A stretch of DNA of 64,000 nt from Glycomyces harbinensis (lineage in GTDB: Bacteria > Actinomycetota > Actinomycetes > Mycobacteriales > Micromonosporaceae), in assembly GCF_900101745.1 (NCBI RefSeq), contig NZ_FNAD01000021.1, forward strand, positions 1-64,000, in the 5' to 3' direction. The position numbers and the translations under genes were made by a program. Each line of letters starts with the position of its first letter. Within the stretch, counting starts at the first letter, position 1. The notes under the pieces were generated by a model, which saw only the letters and a list, made by a program, of their open reading frames with translations, was not told where the DNA came from and searched no databases. Of this stretch, positions 12,200 through 54,799 are shown one piece after another.

Positions 12200-12490
12200 T
12201 TAGAGCATTCCGGCGAAGTCGCTGTGGCCTTCTTCGTCCTGCTCCGTCGTCGCGGTGGCGCTGGAGTCCAGCATGTTGGCGATGTTCTCGAGGGCGTCCT
12301 GGAGGTCCGCGGACTCCTTGTCCCAGGTCGTCATGACTTCCTGGAACGCGACGGCGGCCTGACCGGACCATGCGCTCGCGAGCATCTCGACGAGCGACCG
12401 GATGCCTGCGAGGGTCCCGTCGACGTCCTGCTTCGTGGTCAATGTGTCGGTGGCAGCCTGGTGGACTGTCTCGGATGTCATTGCGACCAT
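12200..12490 (-). CDS. WXG100-family protein (EsxB-like)
   Basis: The 96-residue product has a canonical turn, Trp41-Ser42-Gly43 (ASAWSGQAAVAFQ), in a two-helix WXG100 protein. The C-terminus ends in a flexible acidic stretch and a hydrophobic FAGML tail, resembling the EsxB tail that docks onto the third ATPase domain of EccC. That makes it the likely EsxB-like member of the pair. AGGAGG upstream supports the ATG at 12490; the ATG at 12481 is a possible alternative. It is the first gene of the pair, reading away from the long gap to 12943. Confidence 0.92.
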   Translation of the reverse strand: MVAMTSETVHQAATDTLTTKQDVDGTLAGIRSLVEMLASAWSGQAAVAFQEVMTTWDKESADLQDALENIANMLDSSATATTEQDEEGHSDFAGML

Positions 12491-46196: not shown

Positions 46197-46751
46197 TCAG
46201 ACCGAGGGCCCCCGGCGGCGCAGCTCGTCGACGCTGACCATCGCCTCGCGCAGCTCCTTGAGCCAGTCCTCGGCGTGCTGCTCGACCAGGCGCACGCACC
46301 ACGCGAGCGCGTCCGAGCGCGACGCGGCCACACCGGAGCCGACGAGCGTGTCGAGCACGAGGCGCTCGGGCTGGCGCAGCCGCGTGGTCACCGGCAGGGA
46401 CTGGTGGGTGAAGACCATCGTCGTCGAGCCGCAGCGCGCACCCCACGAGGACTGGCGGTGGTAGCGGTACTGGAGCTGCTGGGCGATCTGCACGCGCATG
46501 TCGCGGGTGGCCTCGCGGAAGCGCGAGATCCGGCCCTCCTCGGTCGCGGCCCGGTCGGACTCGGTCGCGTCGCCCGGGTGGTCCGGCGTCGGCAGCGGGC
46601 AGATGATGATCATCTCGTCGCGGTCGACGGTGACGTCGGGCATGCCGGCGATCCAGCCGTCCGGGACGATCCCGTAGATCCAGGCGGGGGCGTCGTCAGT
46701 GGACGGCAGGGGGCCGTAATGCCACGAGCCGGTGTCGTCGATGGCGGCCAT
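46197..46751 (-). CDS. Hypothetical protein, last gene of the FtsK-like cassette
   Basis: The 184-residue product is soluble and mixed alpha/beta. No signal peptide or membrane segment is seen. The middle has an amphipathic helix (RISRFREATRDMRVQIAQQLQYRYHR), and the C-terminal third (RLVLDTLVGSGVAASRSDALAWCVRLVEQHAEDWLKELREAM) looks like a ribbon-helix-helix or similar small DNA-binding end. That suggestion is weak. GAGGAG upstream of ATG 46751 supports the start. It follows the membrane protein gene by 60 bases and ends at a terminator, so it probably belongs to the cassette reading from 51.8 kb. Confidence 0.72.
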   Translation of the reverse strand: MAAIDDTGSWHYGPLPSTDDAPAWIYGIVPDGWIAGMPDVTVDRDEMIIICPLPTPDHPGDATESDRAATEEGRISRFREATRDMRVQIAQQLQYRYHRQSSWGARCGSTTMVFTHQSLPVTTRLRQPERLVLDTLVGSGVAASRSDALAWCVRLVEQHAEDWLKELREAMVSVDELRRRGPSV

Positions 46752-46811
46752 TGACGGGTCTCCTCACGTTTCGGTGACGCATCAGGTGTACCCCATCCCG
46801 TCAAGGCGGTA

Positions 46812-47495
46812 CTACAGGCCCCGCATGAACACGCCCGCGAGCGCGCACACCGCCGCGATCGCCGCGCCGACGCACGCGAGCGTCTGGCCCGGGCGCGGGC
46901 GCACCCGGTACTGCCACGACAGCCACACGCCGAGCACGATCGGGCCCGTCGCGACCCCCAGGAACAGCGTCAGGGCCGCCGCCGCCTGCCGCACGGCCGT
47001 GTCCTCGCTGCGCAGCGTCCACAGTGCGACCGCGACCGCCAGGGCGCCCAGCCCCGCGCCGATGGCGGCGGCGGTCGCCTCGGTGTGGCGGGGCGCGTCG
47101 ATCGGCAGTTCACCCTGGCGGGCGAGGGACAGCAGCCGCCCGGAGCGCTCCAGCCGGGCCCGGACGCGCTCGGCGTCGGGCTCGGGGTCGGGCGGCCCGG
47201 CCGACGGGGTCGGCCCGGTGCGGCGGTGCCCCACGAAGTCGCCGAGGGACCGCCACAGGACGGACACGGTCTTGTCGGTCTCGGCCACGAGGGTCGCGGC
47301 CGCGACGGCGGCCCGGTTGGCCTCGTCGCGGGCGGTCCCGGCCGCCTCCACCGCGGTCGCGAGCCGGTCGGCTTCGCTCCGGTAGGCGGCGTCGGCGGCG
47401 CGGATCTCCGCTTCGGCGTCGGCGCGGTCCTTCAGGAAGGCCGCGACGGCGTCCGCGTAATCGCACGGTTCGGTGTCGGAGGTCTCGGTCGGCAT
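46812..47495 (-). CDS. Membrane protein of the FtsK-like cassette, N-terminal coiled coil
   Basis: The 227-residue protein has a long Ala/Glu/Arg-rich helical N-terminus (about 12-85, coiled-coil-like), a Pro-rich linker, and then three membrane segments (AAAIGAGLGALAVAVALWTL, AALTLFLGVATGPIVLGVWL, TLACVGAAIAAVCALAGVFM). It starts 10 bases after the stop of the FtsK-like gene, with AAGGGG upstream. So it is in the same operon and may be the membrane anchor or channel for the otherwise soluble ATPase. That role is inference. Confidence 0.8.
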   Translation of the reverse strand: MPTETSDTEPCDYADAVAAFLKDRADAEAEIRAADAAYRSEADRLATAVEAAGTARDEANRAAVAAATLVAETDKTVSVLWRSLGDFVGHRRTGPTPSAGPPDPEPDAERVRARLERSGRLLSLARQGELPIDAPRHTEATAAAIGAGLGALAVAVALWTLRSEDTAVRQAAAALTLFLGVATGPIVLGVWLSWQYRVRPRPGQTLACVGAAIAAVCALAGVFMRGL

Positions 47496-47505
47496 GGCGG
47501 CCCCT

Positions 47506-50500
47506 TTACGGCAGGTCCAGTACGGCCTCGGGCCTGGGCAGGGCCGCGGTCGTCAGGTACGGGATGACCACCTGCGGGGCGCGGTGGCGGGCGCGGTCGA
47601 AGTAGAGGCCGCGCCGCTCGCGCGGATACCAGGCGGGGCCGCCGCTGGCGGGCGAGAGCGGGGCCAGCTCGGGCCCCTGCACGTCGAGGGCGAGCCAGGC
47701 GTCGACGGCGTCGAAGCGCGCGGAGAACCCGCCGAGGTCCTCGCGCAGGCGCGGCACCGACCGCCACCAGCCGAGGGTGTGCAGGTGGCGTTCGGGCCCG
47801 TCGATGAGCATGGCGCGCAGGCGCGCCGACTGGGCGGCGTCCAGGCGCGCGGACCCGGCGTCGACGGCGTAGACGAGGTTGAGCCGCAGGGTCCCGTCGC
47901 AGCGCAGCTCCCAGTCCTTGCACAGCGACCCGAGGTCGTCGTGCCAGTCGACGTCGGCGCCTTCGGTCTCCAGGGCGGCGGCCAGGGCGATCGCGGAGGA
48001 GGCCGCGTCGGGTTCGAGGCAGCACAGGTCGACGCCGATGCGCTGGCCGCGGGCGGCGGTGAGCGCGGCGGCGGCGAGGATGTCGGCGGCCTCGCCGGAG
48101 CGGGTGCCGAGGATGGCGAGGTTGCGTCCGGGGGCGCGGTGGAGGGCGAGTTCGGCGCCGCGGGCGGCGACGTCGATGGTCTGGCCGAGCAGCGCGGTCT
48201 CGGGGGAGGGCGTGTGCGCGGCGAGTTCGGGGACGTGGTCGCCGTCGAAGAGCGCGGGCGGCAGGTTCCCGGGCGGGCGGGCCTCCCACAGGCGGCGCTG
48301 GAGCGGTTCCCAGGCGTCGGCGTGGCCGGCGTTGGGGAGGGCGACGATCTTGTTGGCGACGGCGTGCCCGGACTCGTCGTTGACGACGGCGTGGAAGCGG
48401 GGCACGGTGTCGGCGGCGTGGTTGTTCTCGGCGAGGACCCTGCGGGCCTTGGGCAGTGCGATGCGGAGGGTGAACTGGGCGACCAGGCTCGGGCGGCCCC
48501 ACAGCGCTTCGATGCCGGCGATGTCCTGTGAGGCGAGGACGAGGTGGATGCCCTGGCTGCGGCCGCGGCGGGCGAGGTCTTCGAGGAGCTGGACGGCTTC
48601 GTCGGTGACGGCGTCGCGGGTTTCGAGGAGGACTTGGAACTCGTCGACGACGGCGACGATGCGCGGCCAGTGGCCTTCGGGGTCGGCGGCGCGGAGCTCT
48701 TCGAGCTTGGTGGCCTCGTGGGCTTTGGCGGCTTCGGCGCGGCGGCGCAGCTCGTCCTTGAGGTGGCGCAGGAGGGCGAGGCCGAATTCGCGGTCGTCGT
48801 TGACGTTGACGCCGACGAGGCGCACGTGCGGGAGCCAGGAGGGGTCGCGGCGGCCGGTGGCGAAGCGCGCGAAGGAGACGCCTTCCTTGAAGTCGAGGAG
48901 GTACAGCGCGAGCTCGTCGGGGCTGTAGCCGGAGGCGAGTCCGGCGATCCAGGCGTAGAGCAGGTTGGTCTTGCCCGAGCCGGAGGGGCCGCCGACGAGA
49001 GCGTGGGGCGGGTTGTCGCCGAGGGCGAGCCGGGCGACGTCGCCGGCGGGGGTCTCGCCGATGACGGCGTGGAGCCCGGTGGCGGAGGAGGAGGCCCACA
49101 GGCGCTGCGGGAGGAGGTCGACGAGGCGGGCGGGTTCTCTTCCGGCGCTGTGCTTCTCGGCGATCGCCTTGGCGGCGGCGGTGATCGCCGGGGAGGGCGG
49201 TGGCGCGTCGAGGGCGATCGCGGCGCCGGGCAGGCCGGTGTACTGGGTCGCGGTGAGGCGCGGCAGGTCGGCGGGTCCGGCGGTATCGTCGCCGACGATG
49301 ACGAGGTGGACGCCGGCGGCGACGCCGGTGCGGCGCAGGCGGGCGAGCTGGGCCTGGTCGTGGGCGGGCCAGGAGGCGAGGTCGGCGTTGAGGAGCACGA
49401 GGACGCGCCAGGGTTCGGGGCGCCGCCCGGTGGCGGCGGCGAGCTCGGCGAGGGAGGCGTGCTCGCCGGCGAGGACGTCGGCGTTGATGCGGCGGACGGT
49501 CTCGACGAGCGTGTCGAGCGCTTCGCGCAGCCCGGAGGGGCCGACGAAGGAGAGGAGGCCGGCCTTGCCGAGGGCGGCGAACGCGGACAGGGAGCCGCCG
49601 AGATGCTCGGGGTCGTAGACGTGGAGGCGCACGAGCCCGGCGGGCACGGACCCGACGGCGCGGGCCAGCAGTCCGGGAAGTGCATGCGCCGCATCGGAAT
49701 CGATGCGCAGATGGGCACGGTCGAGCAGCGGCAGCAGCGCGGGCAGTGAGACGCCGGTCACTGATTCCACGGAAATGTCATACCCCTCTGTCACATTTAC
49801 ATCACGGAAAGCGACGTGACGGTGAGAGGAGGTGGTGAGAGCAGCATCGGCGCCGGCGGCATCGATGGCGGTGCGGGCGACATCGGCGGCAGCAAGGGCG
49901 ACATCCACGGAGTCGGCGGCGGCCGAGCCGGACTCCGCGATCGAGCCCGCACCTTCGGGAGCAGCGGCGCGTCCCGCTCCCGAGCCGGCCTCGGCGGGGG
50001 TACCACCGCCGAGCGCACCGCCCGCCTCGACTCCACCCCCGACGGCGACCCGGGCGCCGTCGGAGGCGGGGCCAAGCGCGGCGGAAAGCGAGCAGCTGGC
50101 ATCGGCACAGGCCTCACCGCCAAGGCCGAACGCGGCACCGCCCAGGCCGGTAGCCGGGCGGTGCGAACCAGCGGCGGCAGGCGGGCGCAAGACGGCGGCA
50201 GTGGTGGTGGCGGGTGGGCGGTGAGCAGCGGTGGTGGGTGGGTGGGGGGAGGGGGAGGGGATCCCGGGCCCGGAGCCCGCGGATTCGCTGCCGGCGATGC
50301 GGCCGATGCGCAGCATCGGGGCCGGGCCCCGTTCCAGGCCCGATTCGGGCTTCCAGCCCTGCCATGGGGCCCCTGCCGCAGCCGGGGCGGCGCTGCGGGC
50401 CGCTTCGAGGGCGGCGTCGTGGCCGGCACGCACGGCCGCGGCCCTGCGGGCCTCGAGCGTGGCGACCATCTTCTCGTGGATGCCGCGCAACTGCGTCTGC

Positions 50501-50652
50501 TTGCGCCCGGCATCGCCGATGATCTGCTCGGCCTTGCGGCCTTCGACGTCCGCTTCGACGGCGGTGCGCTCAGCGAGGAGCCGCGCCTCACCGCGGGCGC
50601 GCCCGAGCTCGTCGCCCATGGCCACCACCAGTCGTCTGCGCCAGCTGCTCAT
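47506..50652 (-). CDS. EccC-like FtsK/SpoIIIE ATPase without membrane segments
   Basis: The 1048-residue protein starts with a charged coiled coil (1-90), then a Gly/Ala/Pro-rich linker (90-275). Three FtsK-type ATPase units follow. Unit 1 (~285-455) lacks a P-loop. Unit 2 (~530-775) is intact: Walker A GGPSGSGKT (554-562), LYLLDFKEGVSF, Walker B RIVAVVDEF (Asp670-Glu671), LVLASQD. Unit 3 has a broken P-loop, GTRSGEAAD (849-857), without the Lys. The order of three units recalls EccC, but there is no membrane segment and only unit 2 can be active by motif. GGAGG 7 bases before ATG 50652 supports the start. Neighbours include a 91-residue helical protein and a membrane protein. Confidence 0.88.
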   Translation of the reverse strand: MSSWRRRLVVAMGDELGRARGEARLLAERTAVEADVEGRKAEQIIGDAGRKQTQLRGIHEKMVATLEARRAAAVRAGHDAALEAARSAAPAAAGAPWQGWKPESGLERGPAPMLRIGRIAGSESAGSGPGIPSPSPHPPTTAAHRPPATTTAAVLRPPAAAGSHRPATGLGGAAFGLGGEACADASCSLSAALGPASDGARVAVGGGVEAGGALGGGTPAEAGSGAGRAAAPEGAGSIAESGSAAADSVDVALAAADVARTAIDAAGADAALTTSSHRHVAFRDVNVTEGYDISVESVTGVSLPALLPLLDRAHLRIDSDAAHALPGLLARAVGSVPAGLVRLHVYDPEHLGGSLSAFAALGKAGLLSFVGPSGLREALDTLVETVRRINADVLAGEHASLAELAAATGRRPEPWRVLVLLNADLASWPAHDQAQLARLRRTGVAAGVHLVIVGDDTAGPADLPRLTATQYTGLPGAAIALDAPPPSPAITAAAKAIAEKHSAGREPARLVDLLPQRLWASSSATGLHAVIGETPAGDVARLALGDNPPHALVGGPSGSGKTNLLYAWIAGLASGYSPDELALYLLDFKEGVSFARFATGRRDPSWLPHVRLVGVNVNDDREFGLALLRHLKDELRRRAEAAKAHEATKLEELRAADPEGHWPRIVAVVDEFQVLLETRDAVTDEAVQLLEDLARRGRSQGIHLVLASQDIAGIEALWGRPSLVAQFTLRIALPKARRVLAENNHAADTVPRFHAVVNDESGHAVANKIVALPNAGHADAWEPLQRRLWEARPPGNLPPALFDGDHVPELAAHTPSPETALLGQTIDVAARGAELALHRAPGRNLAILGTRSGEAADILAAAALTAARGQRIGVDLCCLEPDAASSAIALAAALETEGADVDWHDDLGSLCKDWELRCDGTLRLNLVYAVDAGSARLDAAQSARLRAMLIDGPERHLHTLGWWRSVPRLREDLGGFSARFDAVDAWLALDVQGPELAPLSPASGGPAWYPRERRGLYFDRARHRAPQVVIPYLTTAALPRPEAVLDLP

Positions 50653-50723
50653 GGTCGGGCCCTCCGCTCGTCGTGGCTGCTCGTCGTGCGCCGCAAGATC
50701 AGGATCGAGAATTCGCGCACCGT

Positions 50724-51491
50724 TCACCGGCCCTCTCGCGGCAGGCGGTGCAGCGCGGCGACCAGCGCCGGACCCACCAGCGCGGTGCGGGCCGCGTCGC
50801 CGGCGTCGTCGGAACCGCCGCGCCCCAGCGTGCAGGCCGAGGCCAGCGCCGCCCCGATGTGGTCGGGTTCGGCCTTGGGCACCAGCGAGCGCACCTTGTC
50901 GGCGCACTTGTCGCGCAGCGAGGCCACGTCGCGGGCGGTGGGCGTGCGGCCGAGGTGCTCGGCGGCGAGGGTCCGCACGAGCGGCCAGGCCAGGCCGGGG
51001 AGTTTCACCCCGGTCTCGGGCCCGGCGTCGCGCAGGCGCTTGCAGTAGGCCTCGGCGTTGCCGTCGCCGGCGGCCTTGAGGAGCTCGTTGAACAGGCGCG
51101 TCGGCGGGACCTGCTGCGGGTCGGCCGTTCCGGTGCGGTCGCACAGCTCGTTGACGCGCTCGGTCCACCACCGGCGCGGGTCCACCGGGGCCGGCGCGGC
51201 GGTCCTGCCCTTCACGGGGGCCGCGACCGGTGCGGCACTGGTTCCGGCGCCGATCGAGTCGAGGTAGTCGTCGACGGCGGCGGCCGCTTCGCTCAGGCGC
51301 GTGCGCGCGGCGGCGAGCCGTTCGCGCGCGGCGCCGAGCTTGTGGAGCCCGATCTCGGCGTTCGACTCCCGCGAGGCCTCCTTGAGTTCGGCCTGAGCGG
51401 CCTCGAAGCGGTGGTCGGCGGTGTCGAGGGCGGGCAGCGGGAGGTCGACGGCCAGGGCCTTGAGGCGCCCGGCGAGGGCGGCGACGTCCAC
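50724..51491 (-). CDS. Helical protein of the FtsK-like cassette
   Basis: The 255-residue product has an N-terminal helical bundle (LAGRLKALAVDLPL to AAAAVDDYLDSI, about residues 1-80, with many Ala/Glu/Arg heptads), a Pro/Ala linker, and an all-helical C-terminal domain (from RRWWTERVNELCDRTG). Neither signal peptide nor membrane segment is visible. Start GTG 51491 with GGAG six bases before. It lies between the small 91-residue gene (13 bases) and the ATPase gene (71 bases). I do not recognise the family; a chaperone or adaptor for the ATPase is a reasonable guess. Confidence 0.8.
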   Translation of the reverse strand: MDVAALAGRLKALAVDLPLPALDTADHRFEAAQAELKEASRESNAEIGLHKLGAARERLAAARTRLSEAAAAVDDYLDSIGAGTSAAPVAAPVKGRTAAPAPVDPRRWWTERVNELCDRTGTADPQQVPPTRLFNELLKAAGDGNAEAYCKRLRDAGPETGVKLPGLAWPLVRTLAAEHLGRTPTARDVASLRDKCADKVRSLVPKAEPDHIGAALASACTLGRGGSDDAGDAARTALVGPALVAALHRLPREGR

Positions 51492-51504
51492 AGGGGTCTC
51501 CGTT

Positions 51505-51780
51505 CTAGAGGGTCGCGGCGTAGGCCTCGGCCTGCTCGGCGGCCGCGAAGGTCGCGGCCAGGGACTGCTCGAGTTCGGCGGCGGCCTGCGCGAGCGCGGC
51601 CTGGGCGGTGGCGACCGAGTCGTGGCCTGATCCGGCGGTGACGGCGGTCAGGCTCCCCTGTGCGGATTCGATGTTCTGGCTGGCGGCGGAGATGGCGGAC
51701 TGGCCGTCGCGGACCTGCTGCAGGGCGGCGGCGATGGCGGACTTGAGTTCGGCGACGCTCACGGTGGACACGATGCTCAT
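51505..51780 (-). CDS. 91-residue helical protein, WXG100-sized, first gene of the FtsK-like cassette
   Basis: The ~91-residue protein is almost all helix: a first helix (VSVAELKSAIAAALQQVRDGQSAISAASQNIESAQGSL), a short Gly-containing turn (VTAGSGHDS), and a second Ala-rich helix (VATAQAALAQAAAELEQSLAATFAAAEQAEAYAATL). Size and helix-turn-helix hairpin plan match WXG100 proteins, but there is no Trp, so the WXG motif is absent; the turn has AGSG instead. Near the end Y-A-A-T-L follows EQAEA, so no clear YxxxD/E signal is present. Start ATG 51780 or GTG 51786. It leads the cassette, the place esx genes often take. Confidence 0.78.
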   Translation of the reverse strand: MSIVSTVSVAELKSAIAAALQQVRDGQSAISAASQNIESAQGSLTAVTAGSGHDSVATAQAALAQAAAELEQSLAATFAAAEQAEAYAATL

Positions 51781-52009
51781 TCTCACCGAGAACAGGCCCG
51801 CTTTGCGTGATCGGACGATAACGCGGCGTGTCTGCTTTGTCGGATTTCCGATACACCCGTGACAACCAGTGTTGCTTTCGATGCATTTTATGGTGGCGGA
51901 GTGACGTACCTCCCAACTACAGTGTGAGTACCAAACGGGGTAGGGCCGTGGTTACGGCTCGCAAGCTTCGCCGAGGCTGCCCCCAAACATCGATACCCGG
52001 GAGGCGACC

Positions 52010-53293: not shown

Positions 53294-53311
53294 TCGGCCA
53301 GCTCTGGCATG

Positions 53312-53351
53312 CTGTGTCCCGGGCGTCTGTGGACAGACGCCCGGGACACAG
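53312..53351 (+). terminator. Perfect 19-bp inverted repeat between phoH2 and the transglycosylase-like gene
   Basis: Two 19-base arms with a two-base centre (53331-53332) lie 18 bases after the phoH2 stop and end inside the AGGAG ribosome binding site of the next gene. There is no T run. It can act as the phoH2 terminator, but its contact with the ribosome binding site also allows translational control of the gene at 53363. Confidence 0.7.
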
Positions 53352-53362
53352 GAGTAGAGCGA

Positions 53363-54052
53363 ATGATCCCACTGCTGACCCGTTACGGCGCGAAGCTCGC
53401 CGCCGTACTCGTCCTCGCATTGGGGGCCGTCATAGCCGTCAACGCCGTGACCGACGACCCCTCGGAACTCGACGCCCAGCACCCCAGCCAGGCCGCCGCC
53501 GAACAGCAGGCAGAGGCCGAGGCGGCGTACGAGGAAGTCCGCTACCTGCACGTGAACTACATCGAGGAGACCGCGGGCGCCGACGTGGCGACCAAGGTCG
53601 ACGCCCTCGCGGACTTCGCCGCCGACCGCGCCGCGAGCCTGGACAGCGCCCAGGAGGACGCCGACCAGGCCGCCGAAGAGGCCGAGCAGGCCGCCGAGGA
53701 GGCCGCGAACGCCGGGCGCACCGACGTCGACATCCCCGGCAGCTGCGGCGACTACTCGGGCAACAAGGCCACCGGCTGCGCGCTTGCGCAGGAGCACGGC
53801 TTCGACCTCGAGCAGGTCGGCTGCCTCGTCGCCCTGTGGGACCGCGAGTCCGGCTGGAACGAGCTGGCCGCCAACGGCATCGGCGCCTACGGCATCCCCC
53901 AGGCGCTCCCCGGCTCGAAGATGGAGTCCGAGGGCTCGGACTGGGAGACCAACCCGGTCACCCAGATCGAATGGGGCCTGGGCTACATCGAGGGCCGCTA
54001 CGGCACCCCCTGCGAGGCCTGGAACCACTCCGAAGAAGTCGGCTGGTACTAG
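53363..54052 (+). CDS. Exported lytic-transglycosylase-like protein, tandem copy 1
   Basis: The 229-residue product has an N-terminal signal or anchor (YGAKLAAVLVLALGAVIAVNAV), an Ala/Glu-rich coiled coil (about 35-118), and a C-terminal lysozyme-like domain. That domain has ALWDRESGWNELAANGIGAYGIPQALPGSKM, DWETNPVTQIEWGLGYI and YGTPCEAW, as in transglycosylase / aggregation-promoting-factor proteins; the Glu of RESGW is the likely catalytic acid. It would act on cell-wall peptidoglycan outside the membrane. AGGAG upstream of ATG 53363. It is a close paralogue of the next gene. Confidence 0.88.
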   Translation: MIPLLTRYGAKLAAVLVLALGAVIAVNAVTDDPSELDAQHPSQAAAEQQAEAEAAYEEVRYLHVNYIEETAGADVATKVDALADFAADRAASLDSAQEDADQAAEEAEQAAEEAANAGRTDVDIPGSCGDYSGNKATGCALAQEHGFDLEQVGCLVALWDRESGWNELAANGIGAYGIPQALPGSKMESEGSDWETNPVTQIEWGLGYIEGRYGTPCEAWNHSEEVGWY

Positions 54053-54073
54053 CCCCCATATAGACAACCCTCC

Positions 54074-54100
54074 CGCTGCCCGGCCCCGTGCCGGGCAGCG
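54074..54100 (+). terminator. Hairpin between the two transglycosylase-like genes
   Basis: An 11-bp perfect stem with a five-base loop lies 21 bases after copy 1 and 24 bases before copy 2. Like the hairpin at 53312, it sits close upstream of a transglycosylase-like gene. Confidence 0.6.
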
Positions 54101-54124
54101 GCGTCACACCTGGAGCGCCACCCC

Positions 54125-54799
54125 ATGATCCCCAAGCTGACCCGCTACGGGGCCCGGATCGCGGCCCTGCTGGTCCTGTCGATCGGCGCCGTCATCGCCG
54201 TCGCCGCCATCACCGACGACCCCGCGACCACCGACGCCCAGCACCCCAGCCAGGCGGCCGCCGAACAGCAGGCCGAGGTCGAGGAGGCCATCGAGGACGT
54301 CCGCCTCCGGCACGTCGATTACATCCAGGAGACCGCCGGCGCCGACGTCACCGTCAAGGCCGCCGCCGTCGCCGACTACGCCGTGGACAAGGCCGAAGGC
54401 CTGGACGACGCCCAAGAGGACGCCGACCAGGCCGCCGAAGAAGCCGCGATGAACACGAACCCGACGTCAGTGGACGTCCCGTCCAGCTGCGGCGAATACT
54501 CCGGGAACCGCGCGACCGGCTGCGCGCTCACCCTCGAATGGGGCTGGGACCTCGAGCAGTTCGCGTCGTGCCTGGAGCCGCTCTGGAACAAGGAGTCCGG
54601 CTGGAACGAGCTCGCGGCGAACTCCATCGGCGCCTACGGCATCCCCCAGGCCTACCCGGGGAACAAGATGTCCTCCGAAGGCGACGACTGGGAGACCAAC
54701 CCGGTCACCCAGATCCGCTGGGGACTGGGCTACATCGCCAACCGGTACGACGACCCCTGCGGCGCCTGGGCCAAATCCGAGGCCGAGGGCTTCTACTGA
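54125..54799 (+). CDS. Exported lytic-transglycosylase-like protein, tandem copy 2
   Basis: The 224-residue protein has the same plan as the preceding gene: N-terminal anchor (IAALLVLSIGAVIAVAAI), a coiled coil beginning DAQHPSQAAAEQQAE, two conserved Cys (SSCGEYSG and TGCAL), and the lysozyme-like domain (LWNKESGWNELAANSIGAYGIPQAYPGNKM; WETNPVTQIRWGLGYI). The Glu of KESGW is the likely catalytic residue. The coiled coil is about 12 residues shorter than in copy 1. The gene is overlapped on the opposite strand by the 3' end of the DUF998-like frame. Confidence 0.88.
   Translation: MIPKLTRYGARIAALLVLSIGAVIAVAAITDDPATTDAQHPSQAAAEQQAEVEEAIEDVRLRHVDYIQETAGADVTVKAAAVADYAVDKAEGLDDAQEDADQAAEEAAMNTNPTSVDVPSSCGEYSGNRATGCALTLEWGWDLEQFASCLEPLWNKESGWNELAANSIGAYGIPQAYPGNKMSSEGDDWETNPVTQIRWGLGYIANRYDDPCGAWAKSEAEGFY

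Follow-up and report, generated by a model that had tools for sequence, protein, structure and literature searches.

What does a motor related to EccC, the ATPase of ESX (type VII) secretion, do where no translocon accompanies it? The question is raised by a group of genes in a stretch of 64,000 nucleotides from Glycomyces harbinensis (the window), on whose minus strand we checked the coordinates of the open reading frames (ORFs). All five ORFs that a preliminary description had joined into one cassette were present. We compared them with 80 loci, the best 80 of 564 confirmed when genome contigs were scanned with an alignment of the ATPase, and hence close relatives. By these comparisons, four of the genes (small1, p255, the ATPase and tm227) make up a real cassette, inherited together. 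Judged by its sequences, this cassette probably works like ESX but is not ESX: it joins a motor akin to EccC to hairpin partners, and no translocon was found in the genes called in these loci. The features are as follows.

51505..51786, minus strand: small1, a putative helical hairpin protein, found in 66/80 loci
50724..51491, minus strand: p255 (255 amino acids, aa), with a probable N-terminal hairpin and a C-terminal helical domain (hhalign 88–94%, AlphaFold model)
47506..50652, minus strand: EccC-like FtsK/SpoIIIE ATPase (1048 aa; profiles, model, Foldseek, tree)
46812..47495, minus strand: tm227 (227 aa), a coiled-coil-like helical N-terminal part followed by three predicted membrane segments (hydropathy; gene cluster 2)
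46197..46751, minus strand: gene five, AbmR (184 aa; NF058631)

Sequence comparison shows three components: an EccC-like ATPase of three units, one of them catalytic; a tandem pair of paralogous small proteins; and a coiled-coil protein that usually carries membrane segments. When the five cassette-region ORFs were scanned against Pfam, the sole match above its cut-off was that of the ATPase to FtsK_SpoIIIE.

The sole P-loop of the window ATPase, GPSGSGKT at residue 555, belongs to the middle unit, and a Walker B motif, VAVVDEF, follows at 666. Genes in the loci were called with a simple composition model, so that some starts are late (the window ATPase was called as 713 aa) and two loci, L040 and L049, yielded no ATPase call. 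Exactly one Walker A motif was present in all 79 ATPase calls, the window's included. In the predicted structure (mean predicted local distance difference test score, pLDDT, 80.3; predicted template modelling score 0.67) a long N-terminal helix (3–88) and a low-confidence insert (124–296) accompany three RecA-like units, of which the first and third are degenerate and the second, with the Walker A motif at 555, is active. Hydropathy revealed no membrane segment in the window ATPase. One or two hydrophobic stretches exceeded the threshold in 19/79 calls of the family, and the strongest stretch lay within the first 130 residues in 1/79, some calls being without the N-terminus. The three units, the single P-loop and the missing membrane segment are thus as first described.

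Which family does this motor belong to? The EccCa model scored 94 of 509 bits on the window ATPase. In full-length Foldseek searches, the best matches were EccC and EssC (4nh0, an EccC, E 1.7e-28, root-mean-square deviation 15.6), while FtsK motors covered about 300 columns at 1e-13. Profile–profile alignment placed units 1 and 2 in order with the DUF and ATPase1 of EccC, and residues 113–574 of a Rhodococcus relative aligned with EccCa 181–633. Unit 2 scored 211 against ATPase1, 137 against ATPase2 and 123 against ATPase3, values to which retained active-site motifs may contribute. By itself, unit 1 scored 64 against ATPase2, 47 against ATPase1, 35 against ATPase3 and 32 against the DUF, and unit 3 gave weak profile matches only (7.7% at best). 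The structural alignment to 4nh0 spans its chain residues 421–1315, unlike the DUF–ATPase1 register of the sequences.

In a tree built from 70 rows of the catalytic unit, in which the tool flagged long branches, the 45 core cassette ATPases grouped together with support of 100/99. P0099, P0100 and a Rhodococcus plasmid ATPase join this core at 99/90. A wider clade adds P0101–P0105 (one from Aquisphaera) and the Caballeronia, Helicobacter, Deinococcus and TerD-fused Rhodococcus ATPases (98/89; with Deinococcus 92/80), and is sister to ESX and FHA-type EccC. At the same nodes (98/89, 92/80), the cassette ATPase groups with those of a CARF/vWA/WXG100 locus (L087) and similar loci rather than with ESX. 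The FtsK branch measures 5.1 changes per site (100/100), which contradicts an assignment to the FtsK of chromosome partition. True FtsK proteins scored 48–66 bits on the unit-2 profile, ESX proteins 82–98 and core cassette rows 458–499, the profile being partly self-scored, since the core rows and P0102–P0104 helped to build it. The tree, the profile scores and Foldseek thus bear out the earlier view that the ATPase is related to EccC and not to chromosome-partition FtsK. It is best classed, on this evidence, as EccC-like but outside ESX EccC, together with plasmid-borne and other ATPases. In P0101–P0104 hydrophobic segments precede the catalytic unit. The wider clade is therefore not all soluble, and in these members the motor may have taken up the membrane coiled coil by fusion.

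Do the genes travel with the motor? By their titles, the 80 loci come from actinomycetes: Glycomyces, Phytomonospora, Micromonosporaceae, Pseudonocardiales, Actinoallomurus and one further actinomycete assembly. Iterated profile searches of the locus ORFs found the small protein in 66/80, p255 in 57/80, tm227 in 59/80 and AbmR in 6/80. When gene clusters were counted too, p255 or a second small protein was present in 65/80 and a downstream coiled-coil gene in 79/80. Four of the five genes first grouped together thus co-occur beyond chance (66, 65 and 79 of 80), and the 184-aa gene does not. The latter was rejected as a member of the cassette: it matches NF058631 (AbmR, NCBIfam) with 237.6 bits at a cut-off of 160, and all six of its loci are from Glycomyces. 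AbmR is an ATP-binding transcription factor known from mycobacteria; in Glycomyces its gene adjoins the cassette.

Median gaps are 9 bases between small and p255 genes, 24 between p255 and the ATPase, 3 between two small genes and −4 between the ATPase and the coiled-coil gene; where a small gene directly precedes the ATPase call (20 calls), the median is 137. The core is kept between clades although the flanking genes change. Of the 14 loci without a small gene, 4 begin less than 600 bases from a contig end and 10 represent a second, Actinoplanes-like copy. In these copies (L010, L028–L031, L036, L037, L045, L050, L066) a protein of 396–458 aa with 5–7 hydrophobic segments replaces the hairpin genes. 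Twelve Pseudonocardiales loci (L059:8085-8891 and its relatives) carry a conserved gene of 138–428 aa just upstream of the hairpins, and the one member scanned had no Pfam match.

Beyond these loci, the small1 profile matched 130/150 genomes of the window's family (34/42 genera, including all 18 genomes of the genus), a count of the small protein alone; six matches among the 130 have weak scores (E 2e-7 to 9e-13) and possibly come from paralogues. Across the class, 32 of 296 genomes matched (8/106 genera): the window's own genome, two from its family, one from its order and 28 from one other family. The last is probably Frankia-like: on one of its contigs the called ATPase starts with a stretch of P0100, whose contig is from Pseudofrankia. 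Absence elsewhere in the class is weakly tested, with at most 18 candidates scored per genome and the 244 non-matching genomes unlisted. In 7 Frankia-like genomes inspected out of the 28, an ATPase scoring 311–347 bits on the unit-2 profile lay near the small gene in every case. A protein of 226–363 aa with 3–4 hydrophobic segments stands between the two in 6/7, and in the remaining locus (L120) no gene was called there. The ATPase therefore keeps company with the small protein across orders (80 loci; 7/7 Frankia-like loci).

Some matches lie outside this pattern. The 86-aa small relatives at L122, L126, L127 and L130, the last in the window's own genome, had no ATPase called in the fetched 13–14 kb. 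L123, L124 and L125 represent a second cassette type, with an ATPase (219–334 bits on unit 2), a 202–212-aa protein and an 86-aa small protein; they adjoin genes that by eye look FtsH-like and GTP-cyclohydrolase-like. Two small1-family proteins among the actinomycete matches, P0223 and P0230, are labelled Alkalihalobacillus sp. TS-13 and lie on contigs of equal length (86,080 bases), possibly from a mislabelled record.

What are the small proteins? In the window, small1 reads 93 aa from the GTG at 51786, 91 aa from an inner ATG and 84 aa from the GTG at 51759, and ends in ...YAATL. The last start is the likelier one because relatives measure 81–87 aa. There were 395 homologues at E 1e-3, and among the matches listed a Pfam domain was present in 0/120. 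The window protein lacks tryptophan, as had been noticed before, and any tryptophan occurs in 1/64 small1 sequences.

Most Pseudonocardiales loci contain two short tandem genes of about 86 and 83 codons. The alignments of small1 and of the second small protein matched each other in hhalign at 96% with a score of 48.6; 60 column shuffles reached no more than 13.1, and 60 shuffles of seven-column blocks no more than 33.3. The second small protein in turn matched the N-terminus of p255 at 88–94% (without a shuffle control). Through this link to small1, p255 can be read as the window's second small protein, a hairpin fused, in all likelihood, to a further helical domain. The AlphaFold model of p255 (pLDDT 83.6) folds helices 19–44 and 49–79 into a hairpin. 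It covers the paralogue of small1 only, so the hairpin fold of small1 itself is a prediction. Against the PDB, p255 found nothing better than E 1.3; its matches were generic, with no WXG100 structure among those listed, and its C-terminal helical domain had no clear fold match.

The preliminary description had cast the small protein as an export substrate or a regulator. We found nothing that would make it a substrate of WXG100 type, and rejected the small proteins as detectable WXG100 members. The WxG motif is absent from 64 small1 and 23 second small proteins and present in 6/9 WXG100 controls (the other three also lack it), and YxxxD/E within the last 25 residues occurs in 0/64 small1 and 7/9 controls. 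The PF06013 (WXG100) profile matched 6/29 small members weakly (best E 0.0021, below the curated cut-off). In hhalign, the small1 profile scored 12.96 against nine WXG100 proteins, below the reversed control (15.65). A loose regular expression for HxxxD/ExxhxxxH, a C-terminal pattern of WXG100 proteins (PMC3935865), matched 19/64 small1 and 6/9 controls. DUF6244 (PF19757), considered as the family of the small proteins, fitted only weakly: it matched 6/29 members weakly (best E 0.0088) and gave 18.2 bits against 31.6 for one Frankia-like member. Most small1 proteins share an ending, Tyr-x-x-x-hydrophobic (Y...[LIVMF]) in 59/64 and a terminal leucine in 63/64.

Hydropathy places membrane segments of tm227 at 139–162, 170–193 and 202–227, the three reported earlier, and all 49 members of its gene cluster (cluster 2, window included) have two or three. 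The downstream gene of Pseudonocardiales (cluster 8) has a membrane segment in 0/23 loci and matches the tm227 profile in only 3/23; kinship is suggested by these three matches, by position and by a helical look. Thus the proposal that the 227-aa protein is an anchor stands in part: a membrane coiled-coil partner is found in most clades, and a necessary anchor is not, given Pseudonocardiales.

Single-sequence queries from the window (mycosin, EccE, EccD, EccB and WXG100) were used to search for translocon genes. Among the genes called for the 80 loci, the window and the 7 Frankia-like loci, EccB, EccD, EccE and mycosin were without a match at E 1e-5; the WXG100 query had none either among those of the 80 loci. 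The window's own ESX locus, named by eye, runs from a WXG100 gene at 12200 through mycosin (from 15020) to EccB (to 25143). It ends 21 kb from the cassette, in agreement with the 20 kb noted before. In the other direction, at 53309-54799, lie two adjoining paralogous genes with a helical N-terminal half and, by eye, a possible transglycosylase-like end.

How, then, might the cassette work? With a probability of roughly 0.45, we read it as a translocon-free, stand-alone relative of the type VII motor, in which the hairpins regulate and nothing is exported; the mechanism is our inference. The most likely form is a cytosolic or membrane-tethered motor ring with the hairpins as its resident regulators, not an export machine. 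The ATPase would assemble into a hexamer, in part by means of its N-terminal helix. Hairpin dimers, as resident regulators or adaptors, would dock on a degenerate unit by the conserved C-terminal Tyr-x-x-x-Leu tail and gate ring assembly and ATP hydrolysis, after the manner of EsxB on EccC; EsxB is thought to dock on EccC through its tail and thereby to activate it. The coiled-coil protein would link the ring to its work site, which would be the membrane where membrane segments are present. The machine might then remodel or pull a substrate in the cytoplasm, a protein more probably than DNA, without exporting it. That the hairpins are permanent regulatory subunits of a cytosolic, chromosomal EccC-like motor through much of several actinomycete families is a stronger claim, and we hold it doubtful.

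Several observations weigh against this account. Ten of the 80 loci have the ATPase and coiled-coil gene without a hairpin, and 3 of 6 fetched secondary small matches have no ATPase nearby. A direct comparison of small1 with the N-terminus of p255 scores 19.5, within the range of block shuffles (maximum 20.1). The Tyr-x-x-x tail is present in only 10/23 second small proteins (terminal leucine in 23/23). A membrane partner accompanies the Micromonosporaceae, Glycomyces and Frankia-like versions, so that work at the membrane is conceivable. By Z score, FtsK motors are the closest to unit 2 on its own (29.7 over 273 residues, versus 26.5 over 483 for EccC ATPases 2–3). This makes our preference for a protein over a DNA substrate tentative.

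The hairpin-gated remodelling motor nevertheless ranks first, followed by a role in DNA handling or defence and then by export. In a DNA-handling or defence module, the ring would act on invading or chromosomal DNA, with hairpins that sense or load it. The plasmid relatives make this worth considering: of 8 plasmid records matched at 1e-10, 5 were opened. A Caballeronia locus encodes vWA, a WXG100 protein that passes the cut-off of 27.3 with 30.8 bits, an FtsK-like ATPase, CARF, a further vWA, PP2C and a kinase. A Rhodococcus plasmid module (L086) consists of Hsp70, DnaJ-TPR, GrpE, the ATPase, a 203-aa coiled coil that carries a membrane segment at its C-terminus and an 86-aa small protein. 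Others carry TerD, an HNH nuclease and short proteins that match WXG100 below the cut-off. Of 10 short proteins from plasmid relatives, the small1 profile clearly matched one, the 86-aa protein of L086 (17.2 bits, E 2.7e-6 for this set of 10); the whole plasmid, searched with the same alignment, gave no match at 1e-3. A DNA or defence role may apply to those relatives that have vWA/kinase/PP2C/CARF, Hsp70 or nuclease genes beside them; for the cassette itself it seems unlikely. Fourteen queries from L086 and L087 gave one weak kinase match among the genes called in the 80 loci, though these were single-sequence searches that also missed the small and coiled-coil genes (as single queries, the L086 small and coiled-coil proteins found no match there). 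The cassette contains no nuclease, and its stable presence through the family, as gauged by the small protein (130/150 genomes), is unlike a defence island.

A reduced export system, with the hairpins as substrates or co-secretion partners and tm227 or the resident ESX pore as the channel, is somewhat less likely again; it was the view of the preliminary description and comes near to what has been proposed for the CoCoNuT-linked version. It would explain the kinship of the ATPase to EccC in Foldseek, profile alignment and tree, the tandem hairpin genes that resemble esxB–esxA and the three membrane segments of tm227, and secretion is considered likely, by a different mechanism, for the CoCoNuT-linked version (PMC11090510). 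It accords poorly with the failure to find translocon genes among those called in the 80 loci, and with 64 small1 proteins that have neither WxG nor a YxxxD/E tail. The Gram-negative plasmid relatives have no ESX genes annotated in the fetched 16–19 kb. If the cluster 8 gene is the counterpart of tm227, its lack of membrane segments in all 23 Pseudonocardiales calls also argues against export as the common task. Finally, a variant of the FtsK of cell division or chromosome segregation with incidental hairpin neighbours, despite database names such as 'cell division protein FtsK' and the same Pfam domain, is very improbable given the long FtsK branch, the unit-2 scores below even those of ESX and the neighbours kept in 65–79 of 80 loci.

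If the hairpins are such permanent subunits, hairpin control of a motor exists without, and perhaps before, secretion, and type VII systems would have added the membrane parts. EccC has been studied as part of a membrane complex; a translocon-free relative would allow an EccC-type motor and its hairpins to be examined alone. An apparently unstudied cassette of soil bacteria, whose small protein is so widespread in its family, is thereby given a testable role.

How does the cassette compare with known systems? The preliminary description left open whether the family had been described. Its kind is known in outline: stand-alone WXG100/FtsK-like operons with an ATPase active in the central unit are described in PMC11090510, which cites Anantharaman et al. 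2012 for stand-alone copies. A literature search, to which subscription papers were mostly closed, found no paper on the actinomycete cassette. Eight new subtypes of type VII secretion, with T7SSd in Actinomycetota (PMC11217815), and other conflict systems with FtsK-type ATPases (PMC7159879, PMC12839542) have also been reported.

With ESX EccC and EsxA–EsxB, the cassette shares the DUF–ATPase1 order aligned with units 1–2 and the tandem hairpin genes. It differs in an ATPase without a membrane segment and with one unit fewer, in hairpins without WxG or a YxxxD/E tail and in that EccB/D/E and mycosin were not found nearby. WxG and FtsK proteins have been called a minimal type VII set, with HP0062 and HP0066 named (PMC4978471), and HP0062 is an 86-aa dimeric hairpin (PDB 3FX7; PMC3397514). 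As in the cassette, a small hairpin is clustered there with an FtsK/SpoIIIE protein; unlike the cassette proteins, HP0062 keeps WRD at the bend, and its gene cluster additionally encodes a DnaK homologue and a nuclease of HNH/EndoVII type (PMC3397514, PMC4978471). The Rhodococcus module L086 is close in its ATPase, which joins the cassette group at 99/90, and in its 86-aa protein; it differs in its plasmid location, its chaperone genes and its order of ATPase, coiled coil and small gene.

The nearest described likeness is the module of type III-A CoCoNuT (PMC11090510). Both have a three-unit FtsK-family ATPase in which only the central unit, named D2 in CoCoNuT relatives, is active, an N-terminal coiled coil (helix 3–88 in the cassette) in place of membrane helices and two small hairpin proteins, one of them without WxG in CoCoNuT. 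For that module the authors think secretion likely, by a different mechanism. The two hairpin genes or domains in 65/80 cassette loci are not WXG100 by profile and probably form a separate sequence family. In CoCoNuT the coiled coil is fused to a nuclease, whereas that of the cassette carries membrane segments. The cassette is, moreover, chromosomal and inherited with the family, and vWA/CARF/kinase neighbours were not found in the 80 loci by single-sequence searches. In general, it looks like the chromosomal form of a module type that has so far been reported mostly from anti-phage operons.

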